DNA of 64,000 nt from Gemmatimonas phototrophica (GTDB lineage Bacteria; Gemmatimonadota; Gemmatimonadetes; Gemmatimonadales; Gemmatimonadaceae): NCBI RefSeq assembly GCF_000695095.2, contig NZ_CP011454.1, forward strand, positions 1,178,001-1,242,000. Direction: 5' to 3'. The notes under the pieces were generated by a model. It was not told the origin of the DNA, did not search any database, and saw nothing but the letters and a program-made list of their open reading frames with translations. Each line of letters opens with the position of its first letter. Position 1 is the first letter of the stretch. Position numbers and translations under genes: made by a program. Positions 3,000-56,162 of the stretch are shown here, in pieces.

Positions 3000-3127
3000 G
3001 ACGTAAGACCGGCGAGGTGAGACGGCGAGGTCCGAGCGTTGCGAGTTGAGACGGTGCGATGGATATCGAAGGTGAGAGGGTCGAGATAACCACGACGTTG
3101 AGAGGTGCGGGTGCTGGCGTCCGCACG
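2997..3127 (+). repeat. Dispersed TGAGA-type repeat, copy A
   Basis: First of four copies in the window of an intergenic repeat. The 5' part iterates GAGGTGAGA-like words, followed by a conserved core: GTGCGATGGATATCGAA, then GTCGAGATAACCACGAC (3080-3096, with GTCG/CGAC able to pair), then GTGCGGGTGCT and a CCGCAC that can pair back to GTGCGG (to 3126). Most core positions match copy B at 53104. The first TGA of the repeat is the stop codon of the phosphorylase gene. Confidence 0.85.
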
Positions 3128-41719: not shown

Positions 41720-41727
41720 CGGTCGAG

Positions 41728-41783
41728 CTTTGAGTTCTGAGTAAGAGTTTTGAGTCGTGAGTACTCAAAACTCAGCACTCAAA
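41728..41783. repeat. Iterated TTGAGT heptad hairpin, copy 2
   Basis: Words TTTGAGT, TCTGAGT, TTTTGAGT then ACTCAAA, ACTCAGC, ACTCAAA. The core is a perfect 11-base-pair stem GAGTTTTGAGT (41745-41755) / ACTCAAAACTC (41763-41773) with a 7-base loop. It follows nusG and may end or process that transcript. Confidence 0.7.
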
Positions 41784-53034: not shown

Positions 53035-53053
53035 GACCTCGGGGTATGGTGCG

Positions 53054-53090
53054 AGAACGCGGGCGGTGCCATTGGCACCGCCCGCGTTCT
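53054..53090 (+). terminator. Terminator of the rpoBC operon
   Basis: 17-base-pair perfect stem AGAACGCGGGCGGTGCC, loop ATT, complementary arm, then CTTTCGTCT. Confidence 0.93.
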
Positions 53091-53103
53091 CTTTCGTCTG
53101 GAA

Positions 53104-53220
53104 TGAGATGGGGAGATCGGGAGGTGAGAGCGTTGCGAAGTGAGAAAATGCGATGGATATCGAATGTGAGAATGTCGAGATAACCACGACGATGAGAAGT
53201 GCGAGTGCTTCGTCCGCACG
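53104..53220 (+). repeat. Dispersed TGAGA-type repeat, copy B (left arm of inverted pair)
   Basis: Same orientation as copy A. Shares GAGGTGAGAGCGTTGCGA, ATGCGATGGATATCGAA and GTCGAGATAACCACGAC, and ends in GTGCG ... CGCAC, which can pair. It lies just after the rpoC terminator. Copy C, 650 bases away, is its inverted partner. Confidence 0.88.
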
Positions 53221-53228
53221 TTGAGGTT

Positions 53229-53302
53229 TGAGACCGCTGCGCGGGGAGAGGTGAGACCGCTGCGCGGGGAGAGGTGAGACCGCTGCGCGGGGAGAGGTGA
53301 GA
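53229..53302 (+). repeat. 23-base tandem repeat, about three units
   Basis: Unit starts TGAGACCGCTGCGCGG and ends GGAGAGG; TGAGA words at 53229, 53252, 53275 and 53298, spaced exactly 23 bases. The unit is made of the same words as the repeat core. It is too short and without unique spacers to be a CRISPR array. Confidence 0.9.
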
Positions 53303-53374
53303 CTTCGCGTTGAAATGGTCCGATGCGCGTGCTTCTGGTGAGACTGGGCGCGGCGAGTTTTGCTATCGTCGCGC

Positions 53375-53776
53375 ATGGCACACAATCCGCAAAAACTCGA
53401 AGTGGTGCGCCGGGCGTTTGCGCTGGCGGTAACGGTGCACCGGCTTGCTGACGAATACACGGCGGCCATGGCTCGCGTATCGCCGGGCATGCGTGCGCAG
53501 CTGCTGCGCGCGGTGGACTCCATGGCGCTCAATCTCACCGAAGGCGCCGGCTGTGAGTCTCCGACCAAGACCGCGACTTTCTGCACAACGGCCATTGGAT
53601 CCTGCAACGAAGTCGAACTGCAACTGCGTCTGGCGTCTGCCTTGGAGGTCCTTCCCCCCACCAAGGACTACATCACCGATGAAGTCATCGAAGTCCGCCG
53701 GTTGATCTACGGATTCCGCAAATACGTGCTGTCACATCCACCCATCACCCCCACGCCCGGCCCCGCCAGCCAATGA
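53375..53776 (+). CDS. Four-helix-bundle protein, 23S-rRNA-IVS (S23) family
   Basis: 133 residues, all helical. The family fingerprint is clear: ALNLTEGAGCESPTKTATF and TTAIGSCNEVELQLRLASAL correspond to the usual NIAEGxGR and AxGSxxExexqLxxA; helices span about 5-30, 38-55, 64-92 and 100-119, with a Pro-rich tail. Relatives are encoded inside 23S rRNA intervening sequences and, as bAvd-like proteins, beside diversity-generating retroelements; they bind nucleic acid through a basic surface. Function in free-standing loci is unknown. It lies between inverted repeats B and C. No reverse transcriptase is in the window. The start ATG at 53375 fits the family; the upstream 53360 TTG is less likely. 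Confidence 0.85.
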   Translation: MAHNPQKLEVVRRAFALAVTVHRLADEYTAAMARVSPGMRAQLLRAVDSMALNLTEGAGCESPTKTATFCTTAIGSCNEVELQLRLASALEVLPPTKDYITDEVIEVRRLIYGFRKYVLSHPPITPTPGPASQ

Positions 53777-53836
53777 CCGTCTCCCGCAACGCGGTCTCAA
53801 TGCCCCCGTAACCCGGTCTCAATTCTCCCGCGAAGC

Positions 53837-53865
53837 GATCTCAGATCTCAGATCTCAGATCTCAG
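53837..53865 (+). repeat. GATCTCA heptad repeated four times
   Basis: Perfect head-to-tail copies at 53837, 53844, 53851 and 53858, directly beside copy C. Confidence 0.95.
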
Positions 53866-53866
53866 C

Positions 53867-54005
53867 GTGCCGACGAAGCACCTGCACCTCTCACCATCGT
53901 GGTTATCTCGACCCTCTCACATTCGAAATCCATCCCAATCTCTCACCTCACAACGCTCTCACCTCCAATTCTCACCGCTCAAGATCTCACCGTCTCACCT
54001 CTCCC
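53867..54005 (-). repeat. Dispersed TGAGA-type repeat, copy C (right arm of inverted pair)
   Basis: Reverse orientation. On the minus strand it reads GGAGGTGAGAGCGTTGTGA, then GGGATGGATTTCGAATGTG, GTCGAGATAACCACGA and GTGCAGGTGCTTCGTC. The end nearest the kinase gene encodes that protein's last residues (ETGEVRR) and its stop codon. Confidence 0.88.
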
Positions 54006-55936
54006 GTCTCCGGTCTCGCTCGTCGCTTGGTTGCGGTTGCCGCGGTGTCCAGCCAGCTCGCGACTTGCTGGCGCGCGAGTTCCATGCTTTTGCCCGGGTT
54101 TTCTCCGGCTGCCATCACATGCTCCATGACGCGCACAAACCGGCCCGTCTTTACATCGGTGAGTTTGGTGGCCACCACGAGCGAGTCGCCGCGGGTCGTG
54201 AGCCATCCGTTCACCAGAAAGTCGGCACGTAGCGCCCAGCCTGCGGCCATCTGATCCGGAGTCATGCGCACGGCACGTTCGGTGAGGTCCGGCGGCATTA
54301 CATCGTAGCGCTCTCCCGGAATGGCTGTGCGCATGAGGGTGGCCGCTTCGCGTGCGGTCGCGGCAAACTCCCGGCGACCGGTGGCGTTACTCCAGTTGGT
54401 CACCACCACGCGCAGTCGCCCATCACTTGGCGGAGCCACCAAGGGTGCCACGAACGTCATGGTGCGCGTGGAGCCCGGCGGGGATTCGGGGCGCGGCGGT
54501 TCCATGCGCAAGACGCGCGGCACGCGGGCCAGCGCAGAGTCCATGTGTTGAATGGCACGGCTCATCGAGTCGGAAAAAATCCGCCCGAGTTCGGACATGA
54601 GCAGTTCACGGTCGATCTCCGCCATCATGCCATTGCTCATACGTACCGCTACGCGCACCGCGCTCGTCTCCGCCAGGACTTTCGTGCCCGTAGCGCCTGC
54701 GGCGGTTGGGGCGGTCGCTGGGCGGGGAGGCTGCTGCGACTGCCGTTTCCGTATGGCATCGGCAATGGCCAGCGACTCGGCGCGGGTAATCACCAGTGGC
54801 ACGGCCGTGCTGCGGGCACCGTCGCTAATGTCGCGGAACACGGCTACGGTATCGCCGAGCATTCCCTGTGCGGTACCGGTGGTCCCGCGAACGGGGATAC
54901 TGTCGGTGACGGAGGCTGGAGGTGCACCCCCACCAGGGCCCGCATCGCGTGCATCGAGTGCCTCCAGTGACGCCGGCGCCTGCGGAACGTGCGGCAGCAC
55001 CGCCCAAACGACGGCCGCCACCGCGGCGAGTCCTGCGACCAGCAGGGCAGGGCGTGGCCGAGTGCGGCGCGGCGCCAGCGTGGCGCCACTTGTCATGGGC
55101 GGCAGGGCGTCGAGCTCGGCCAGCAGCAGCAGCGCGGATTGCGGTCGCCGGGCCGCATCCTTTTCGAGGCAGTGCATGATGAGCGAGGACAGGGGCTCAG
55201 GGATGTCACTGAACGAACGGTGCGGCGGCTCCGGCATCTGCGTGAGCTGTGCCGCCAGCGTGGCCTGCGGCGAGGACCCACTGAAGGGCGCCTTGCCCGT
55301 CAGCAGCTCATAGGCCAACAGTCCGACGGCATAGAGATCCACCCGGTGGTCGGCGGCGGGGTCGGCGGCCAGCTGTTCGGGGGCCATGTAGGCGGGGGTG
55401 CCGATTGCCATGCCGGTCGTCGTGCCCCCCTGCGCCGGACTGGCGGCGCTGAGCGCTTTGGCCACCCCGAAGTCGGTGACCAGGGCATGCATCCCGGACG
55501 TGAGGATGTTGTCAGGCTTGATGTCTCGATGGACCACCCCACGGGAGTGGGCATAGGCCAACGCATCAACCACGTCGTGCAGAATGCGCACCACATCGCG
55601 GGCGGAGAGCCGTTGCTGGCGCGTCAGGGTCCCCCGGAGTGATTCGCCGTCGATATAGGGCATAGAGAACCACAACAGCCCGGCATCGTCCCCAGCGGCG
55701 AGCAGGGGCACAATGTGCGGATGTTGCAGCTGGGCGGCCAGTTGGATTTCCCGCCGGAACCGCTCCACGTTGACGCCAGCCGCCAGATCGGGGGGGAGCA
55801 CCTTCACGACCACGCGGCGTCCCAGGGCGATTTCCGTAGCCACGAAGACCCGGGACATGCCGGCGCCCCCCAGTTCCCGCTCTAGGCGGAACTCGGACGC
55901 GAGGGCAGCCTGCAGACGTTGTTGGAAATCGCTCAC
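53987..55936 (-). CDS. PknB-type Ser/Thr protein kinase, membrane-anchored
   Basis: 649 residues. Kinase domain 17-280: glycine loop ELGGAGMSRVF, Lys45 (VVVKVLPPD), HRDIKPDN with catalytic Asp138, DFG, and GTPAYMAPEQL. A basic linker and one membrane span at about 298-318 follow, then an extracytoplasmic part (about 320-640) without PASTA repeats: an Ala/Pro linker and a domain with FVAPLVAPPSDGRLRVVVTNWSN and GWALRADFLVNGWLTTRGDSLVVATKLTD, resembling a TolB/CsgG-like sensor. GTG start at 55936. The last seven codons and the stop come from repeat C. It lies on the opposite strand between rpoC and rpsL. Confidence 0.88.
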   Translation of the reverse strand: MSDFQQRLQAALASEFRLERELGGAGMSRVFVATEIALGRRVVVKVLPPDLAAGVNVERFRREIQLAAQLQHPHIVPLLAAGDDAGLLWFSMPYIDGESLRGTLTRQQRLSARDVVRILHDVVDALAYAHSRGVVHRDIKPDNILTSGMHALVTDFGVAKALSAASPAQGGTTTGMAIGTPAYMAPEQLAADPAADHRVDLYAVGLLAYELLTGKAPFSGSSPQATLAAQLTQMPEPPHRSFSDIPEPLSSLIMHCLEKDAARRPQSALLLLAELDALPPMTSGATLAPRRTRPRPALLVAGLAAVAAVVWAVLPHVPQAPASLEALDARDAGPGGGAPPASVTDSIPVRGTTGTAQGMLGDTVAVFRDISDGARSTAVPLVITRAESLAIADAIRKRQSQQPPRPATAPTAAGATGTKVLAETSAVRVAVRMSNGMMAEIDRELLMSELGRIFSDSMSRAIQHMDSALARVPRVLRMEPPRPESPPGSTRTMTFVAPLVAPPSDGRLRVVVTNWSNATGRREFAATAREAATLMRTAIPGERYDVMPPDLTERAVRMTPDQMAAGWALRADFLVNGWLTTRGDSLVVATKLTDVKTGRFVRVMEHVMAAGENPGKSMELARQQVASWLDTAATATKRRARPETGEVRR

Positions 55937-56042: not shown

Positions 56043-56162
56043 AGACGCCAGCACCCGCACCTCTCACCGTCGTGGTTGTCTCGCCTCCCCCTTTCGATAT
56101 CCATCGCACCGCCCGCCTCCCACTGTCTCACCTCCCAGTCTCACCTCCCAGTCTCACCTCTC
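56043..56162 (-). repeat. Dispersed TGAGA-type repeat, copy D
   Basis: Reverse orientation, in the 395-base region between the kinase and rpsL. Conserved words on the minus strand: GGTGCGATGGATATCGAA, GAGACAACCACGACGGTGAG, GTGCGGGTGCTGGCGTC. Its outer end has a 13-base tandem (GTCTCACCTCCCA, about three units). The core is more diverged than in A-C. Confidence 0.8.

Follow-up and report, generated by a model that had tools for sequence, protein, structure and literature searches.

An S23 gene between long inverted repeats beyond rpoC in Gemmatimonas phototrophica: a probable resident copy of a mobile element

Among described systems, the closest counterparts of the locus analyzed here are the intervening sequences (IVSs) of 23S rRNA genes. 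The IVS of Coxiella burnetii is 428 nt long, has terminal inverted repeats, and carries tandem heptamers (GACAGAT) before an ORF of the S23 family (PMC4990558). According to the same source, the stem of rRNA IVSs is cut by RNase III, IVS mobility with the ORF as a factor was proposed in 1993 by Ralph and McClelland, and the origin of the Coxiella IVS is unclear. Both the origin and use of rRNA IVSs and the function of the common S23 ("four helix bundle") genes have been open questions for decades.

Other systems share part of these features. In REP/REPIN elements with their RAYT (TnpA-REP) genes, a resident gene is accompanied by many short, non-autonomous palindromes in inverted pairs, and the repeats are species-specific. 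The STRR of cyanobacteria are a family of heptamer repeats. Further heptamer families include the GGGAATC repeats of Xanthomonas, which form 70-75 convergent inverted pairs (PMC4692102), and the TAACTGA repeats of Beggiatoaceae and cyanobacteria (PMC4679880); a term search of these two papers for S23, 23S, and four-helix found no mention. The Avd protein of diversity-generating retroelements (DGRs) is, like S23, a four-helix bundle, and PF05635 is set beside Avd in PMC10053308. Our literature search of open-licence PMC papers turned up none that connects S23 genes with dispersed repeats, and none that joins IVSs, heptamer families, and the comparison with Avd.

The element described here resembles the Coxiella IVS in that an S23 gene lies in the loop of terminal inverted repeats and in that heptameric tandem repeats are present. 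Unlike that IVS, it is located between protein genes with no rRNA context, and S23 elements of this kind have dispersed S23-less copies as well as empty sites in relatives. They share with REPIN-RAYT systems the resident gene, the many short palindromes in inverted pairs, and the species-specific repeats, but their arms are longer, their words are variable, and the host genome has no Y1/HUH match. Tandem heptamers are dispersed here as in the Xanthomonas, Beggiatoaceae, and cyanobacterial families, whereas here the heptamers constitute the arms of S23 units. In contrast to DGRs, no reverse transcriptase was noticed next to the S23 genes inspected. In our best explanation, which we consider probable, the locus is a resident copy of a mobile element in which an S23 gene occupies the loop of a long inverted repeat built from short words.

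The S23 element beyond rpoC

The window, which is the whole stretch of 64,000 nt that was analyzed, derives from the genome of Gemmatimonas phototrophica (G000; 4,716,552 bases in one contig). Its relevant features are as follows, in window coordinates.

3016..3127, plus strand: solitary copy of the left-arm family (genome 1181016-1181127)
53053..53091, plus strand: perfect 19-nt hairpin, probable rpoC terminator, outside the element
53110..53233, plus strand: left inverted-repeat arm, of a family dispersed in the genome (67 matches at 38 loci)
53229..53303, plus strand: tandem array of period 23, TGAGACCGCTGCGCGGGGAGAGG, inner portion of the left arm
53375..53776, plus strand: S23 (four-helix-bundle) gene, 133 aa, ATG start, TGA stop
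53780..53843, minus strand: tandem array of period 22, TCTCCCGCAACGCGGTCTCAAT, inner portion of the right arm
53837..53865, minus strand: tandem heptamer array, GATCTCA x 4.1, period 7
53853..53976, minus strand: right inverted-repeat arm, 83% complementary to the left arm

The arms are 124 nt each with 619 nt between them, and gapped pairing lengthens the match to 163 nt of the left arm (53120-53282). When the upstream flank is aligned locally to the reverse-complemented downstream flank, the score is 154, compared with a maximum of 28 at 53 control positions in the neighborhood. The initial annotation, made from the sequence alone, had described an S23-family gene between long opposite repeats backed by tandem units of TGAGA words, and this description is borne out: TGAGA/TCTCA words are the building blocks of all three arrays flanking the gene. 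Folding of 53100-54010 as RNA, a check that it had proposed, yields -452.5 kcal/mol versus -342.8 +/- 7.1 kcal/mol for 20 shuffles (z -15.4). The solitary arm at 3016-3127 lies among other genes, and a partner arm is not evident. Short tandem arrays with words similar to those of the element are also found at 41725-41763 (GAGCTTTGAGTCCTGAGTAA x2) and, directly before rpsL, at 56125-56160 (GTCTCACCTCCCA x2.8).

Assignment of the gene to the 23S-IVS family of four-helix bundles is likewise confirmed. Its product matches PF05635 (E 2e-16, 60.6 bits, curated cut-off 33.8) and TIGR02436 (E 5e-18, 65.3 bits, cut-off 24), and the AlphaFold2 model is a four-helix bundle with a pLDDT of 94. The top PDB matches of this model in Foldseek are the S23 proteins 2gsc and 2rld, and Avd and DGR ribonucleoprotein chains rank straight after the S23 structures. 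This Avd-like modeled fold suggests that S23 may have a nucleic-acid-binding or polymerase-accessory role. Net charge is positive in 57 of 58 S23 proteins counted, that of the window protein being only +1, and we know of no catalytic residues in S23.

An IVS-like architecture outside rRNA, as originally claimed, is therefore what is observed, with the ORF in the loop of a stem formed by terminal inverted repeats. Because it lies outside rRNA, the element is not itself an IVS, despite that architecture and its S23-family gene. It lies between the rpoC terminator-like hairpin and a convergent kinase-like gene (53987-55936, minus strand), not in a 23S rRNA gene. The setting had been given as rpoC to rpsL; rpoC is indeed on the left, but the right neighbor is the kinase-like gene, and rpsL is located past it.

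We found rpoC in 23 of 30 genomes of the genus at 24 places, 23 of which were analyzed (a second G010 fragment was left out). An S23 gene or fragment follows rpoC at 14 of these 23 places: in the same direction in G000, G005, G016, G006, and G018; in the opposite direction in G013, G004, G001, G020, G025, G029, G024, and G028; and as a fragment in G027. The site holds a short hairpin without S23 in G022 and other or too short sequence in G026, G007, G010, G019, and G008. By eye, rpoC runs directly to the kinase-like gene in G011, G021, and G012. No movement is seen at this site. In a midpoint-rooted FastTree tree, the rpoC-site S23 genes that are long enough to be included group together, with the same-direction ones nested. 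The simplest reading of the orientation difference is an inversion between the arms, and in our best explanation the copy has been inherited within the genus and was probably inverted once in this manner. The window copy is best read as an old resident of the rpoC site. Its own site offers presence, absence, and orientation between species only, which counts against a mobile S23 element.

Inverted repeats at other S23 genes and palindromes without the gene

The genome of G. phototrophica carries four PF05635 genes including that of the window, all with inverted repeats at the gene and each with a different word family. At L009, a 57-nt, 96% inverted repeat of GGTTATG words, 529 nt apart, surrounds S23, and at L008 the gene is flanked by two 300-nt palindromic copies. 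L007, with a 64-nt palindrome (5 nt between arms) just 3′ of S23, is the only one of the four not enclosed by repeats. The initial annotation had named two observations that would speak against its reading, other S23 genes without flanking repeats and inverted pairs equally common without S23. The first is not seen in this genome, where the three other genes all have inverted repeats, two of them on both sides; inverted pairs without S23 are indeed common, as described below.

PF05635 is present in 52 of 61 genomes of the genus, family, and order. From this genome and its relatives we assembled 60 S23 loci, mostly of 16 kb, which together with the window make 61, and aligned each upstream flank to the reverse-complemented downstream flank in comparison with control positions of the same locus. 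At 52 of the 61 loci the S23 gene outscores every local control, and 49 reach a score of 40, control means being about 22. The other nine count against a mobile S23 element; five share one orthologous site (L071, L074, L080, L091, and L123) and four are at separate sites (L088, L100, L109, and L111). For 30 PIN (PF01850) loci from such genomes, which served as a gene-family control, the scores averaged 22.7 and peaked at 37, and none of the 30 reached 40.

Named genomes were surveyed by taking the best 80 of 587 S23 loci, those closest to the query, whose record titles represent more than 10 phyla. Control positions numbered 939; 42 of the 75 testable loci surpass their 99th percentile, and a score of 40 is reached by 36 of the 75 compared with 6 of the 939 controls; the 33 loci below that percentile again count against the element. 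Flanks of the named loci have an excess match of 0.104, 0.088, and 0.086 at lags 7, 14, and 21 (controls -0.013, -0.016, and 0.028). This period of 7 is weaker in the Gemmatimonadota set (0.035 at lag 7 and 0.035 at lag 14), with no excess over control at lag 21. Short words, in many cases heptamers, make up the arms, and the word differs between loci. Thus, an S23 gene between inverted repeats is the rule for the examined S23 genes outside rRNA. Given how widely S23 genes occur in intergenic inverted repeats, the direction implied by the earlier proposal of an architecture "transplanted" from rRNA is not supported. It looks instead as though the rRNA IVS is one special case of S23 inverted-repeat units, the S23 loci examined here being all outside rRNA genes.

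Among loci with a score of at least 40, the S23 strand of the arm located 5′ of the gene is rich in G at 43 of 49 (L071-L130 plus the window) and at 30 of 33 (L131-L210), or 73 of the 82 strong-arm loci in both sets. We checked these sets for identity gradients along the arms and found none, the inner half being better at 21 and 13 loci and the outer at 24 and 17. Repeat-rich intergenic DNA might simply grow by replication slippage and gene conversion, with S23 merely persisting within it, and the short tandem words, their variable copy numbers, and outer arrays that differ between close relatives fit such a process. The position and PIN controls and the G-rich upstream arm nevertheless argue against it, as do the precise filled and empty sites described below, since insertion polymorphisms contradict slippage unless all are deletions. 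We find this origin hardly credible.

Palindromes that bear the same arms and lack S23 are scattered through the G. phototrophica genome. The 38 loci matched by the window arm include 26 convergent inverted pairs, an arrangement typical of REPINs. One of the 26 holds S23 (gap 618 nt), and the other 25 are S23-less with gaps of at most 134 nt; inspected copies are palindromes of about 300 bp. The arm of a second S23 locus, L073, has 58 matches at 33 loci with 21 pairs, one with S23 and 20 without (gaps of at most 49 nt). Seven loci are composites of one arm of each family (genome 803865-804045, 902927-903085, 907489-907660, 921180-921368, 928269-928464, 932296-932500, and 4155644-4155840). Three of these that were aligned contain the same composite in unrelated flanks, which indicates that composites are copied as units. 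S23-less palindromes also bear the arm of the L072 S23 gene in sampled G000 DNA and the arm of the rpoC-site S23 gene in sampled G029 DNA. These S23-less palindromes are best read as non-autonomous copies of the S23 element.

A comparable pattern is found in planctomycetes, where TCAGTGG is dispersed in genomes with S23 loci. Three such loci (L155, L161, and L146) have GTCAGTG- or TAGTG-type heptamers, and the 17-mer GTGGTCAGTGGTCAGTG occurs 79+59, 21+21, and 33+31 times in their respective genomes, with close inverted pairs among the copies in the L155 genome. It occurs 9+3 and 1+0 times in two further genomes and 0 times in three S23 genomes with other words, and its reversed control word has 0 matches across 8 genomes.

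A strict link between S23 and long palindromes was not upheld in samples of four genomes. Palindromes scoring at least 60 number 7 in 400 kb of G029 and 5 in 400 kb of G000, compared with 1 in 400 kb of G043 and 5 in 343 kb of G032, the latter two being genomes without S23. The long palindromes of G032 (L343:7982-8299, L342:1664-1824, and L360:1784-1964), in the absence of a PF05635 match, count against a mobile S23 element. Those of L342 and L360 have the words GGTTCCCACGGAGCCACGG in common.

Arm sequences compared with the genes they enclose

Arms differ from species to species even when they enclose orthologous S23 genes. L073, L083, and L087 represent one orthologous S23 site with conserved flanks, and their arms score 104, 106, and 213 when compared within a locus and no more than 16-21 when compared across loci. 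The L073 arm has 49 matches in G000, none in G016 or G005, and one weak match in G003, whereas the L083 arm has 18 in G016, 23 in G005, none in G000, and single weak matches in three others. In the same cross-genome comparison, the window arm has 46 matches in G000 and 0 in 29 congeners.

Arms can also be alike at unrelated positions. The S23 genes of L072 (G000) and L127 (G006) are 81% identical and have similar arms (scores 229 and 293) within unrelated far flanks (28 and 28). Of 1346 non-syntenic S23 pairs, 7 have an S23 identity of at least 65%, and arms are alike (score of at least 40) in 5 of these; the corresponding counts are 6 of 125 pairs with 45-65% identity and 1 of 1214 with less than 45%. 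The close paralogues L094 and L098 have unlike arms, which counts against a mobile S23 element.

These data bear on whether the palindromes are ordinary REPIN- or MITE-like non-autonomous elements of an unrelated transposase, with S23 as a passenger in some loops. The large majority of S23-less pairs (25 of 26 and 20 of 21 inverted-pair loci), the presence of Y1 transposases in 10 of 31 genomes searched, and the S23-free palindromes of G032 are in keeping with that idea. However, the complete G000 genome has no match to PF01797 (Y1 transposase), which speaks against a REPIN-RAYT mechanism there; S23 recurs as the loop gene across phyla despite unrelated arm sequences; and arms are shared preferentially by close non-syntenic S23 genes. 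We therefore regard a passenger role for S23 as unlikely.

A further alternative is that selection preserves the stem for its double-stranded RNA, which would act as an RNase III substrate, in stabilizing the rpoC transcript, or in S23 expression. It draws on the stable RNA fold, on the RNase III cleavage of IVS stems reported for rRNA in PMC4990558, and on the presence of the element after rpoC in much of the genus. Against this, rpoC and the element are set apart by a perfect terminator-like hairpin, several congeners have no element at the site, and the gene is missing from most dispersed copies. The arms of G006 and G018, whose S23 genes are 98% identical, differ by four left-only and five right-only changes, one change alike in both arms, and two unlike in both. 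Base-pair-by-base-pair selection on the stem is ruled out by such independent change in the closest pairs, and for that reason a regulatory RNA kept by pairing, one of two possibilities raised in the initial annotation, is not supported; we judge this alternative to be very improbable. The other possibility, mobility, is strongly supported for the class of elements by dispersed S23-less copies, non-orthologous positions, and filled and empty sites. Given arms that are genome-specific and yet drift independently in the closest pairs, both arms seem to be renewed together occasionally rather than maintained as a base-by-base match.

Filled and empty sites in plasmids and a candidate mechanism

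Of 72,556 plasmid records, 36 contain S23, most of them from cyanobacteria, and one query run against 50,697 phage records returned 0 homologues. We examined 12 of the 36. An inverted repeat scoring at least 40 is present at 6 of the 12 loci, and most others have short heptamer arms by eye, L361 having none.

Related plasmids differ at matching sites in whether they carry a complete S23 unit. Plasmid C of Trichormus variabilis ATCC 29413 (L367) has exactly 428 bp more than the Nostoc linckia NIES-25 sequence (L373). GTAAT borders the insert on either side and occurs a single time in the empty site, so the difference resolves into a 423-bp unit plus a 5-bp duplication; this unit is close in length to the 428-nt Coxiella IVS. 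L384 has the same empty-site sequence as L373, and six records hold a 973-nt version of the site. The site is occupied in Brasilonema (L380) by a heptamer palindrome without S23 and in Nostoc C052 pC052_E (L374) by a truncated S23 gene. The Nostoc plasmids L366 and L369 carry different S23 units and heptamers at two neighboring sites of one gene row, such that each plasmid provides the empty site for the unit of the other. Two plasmids of strain C052 (L366 and L377) differ at that site by 417 bp. Less clean filled/empty pairs are L371/L375, L364/L376, and L363/L385. In Nostoc N6 plasmid pNPM1 (L378:740-1360), an S23-less palindrome with the same heptamers interrupts an S23 gene. Cyanobacterial S23 units therefore exhibit the filled and empty sites expected of transposable elements. 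Apart from the 5 bp of L367/L373, a duplication is possible in L369 (ATG, 3 bp) and none is clear elsewhere; these mixed outcomes mean that target duplications are not uniform, which counts against a mobile S23 element.

We infer that S23 drives movement, probably via a folded single strand. S23 would recognize its own arms as a hairpin, promote copying or insertion of its own unit, and act in trans on S23-less deletion derivatives, with catalysis by host or unknown enzymes. If the intermediate were single-stranded and folded, and the 3′ arm were rebuilt on the 5′ arm, this would account for the joint renewal of the two arms followed by their separate decay. The 23S rRNA IVS would be an insertion of this kind, tolerated, we propose, because RNase III removes the stem, and it is best read as one form of a widespread mobile element without a recognized transposase. 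More broadly, S23 may be the mobility factor of a new class of transposable elements that lacks a transposase, recombinase, or reverse transcriptase of its own, moves via a folded single strand with arms renewed from each other, and is the source of many heptamer and palindrome families and of 23S IVSs. We advance this wider proposal tentatively, inclining slightly toward doubt. Should S23 units be mobile, both the IVS and the S23 question become testable with the filled/empty pairs, the 423-bp unit, and S23-less substrates, and the dispersed heptamer and palindrome repeats, to which earlier discussions have assigned no responsible gene, would gain a source.

Plasmid S23 genes are also located within gene rows, for example cas6–S23–cas4 and cas10–S23–cmr3-like. 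The pair L370/L382 at the cas6-cas4 position was considered as a filled/empty pair and set aside as not clean, since the other record carries unrelated sequence there. S23 units in CRISPR-Cas gene rows of cyanobacterial plasmids are observed in L362, L365, and L370.
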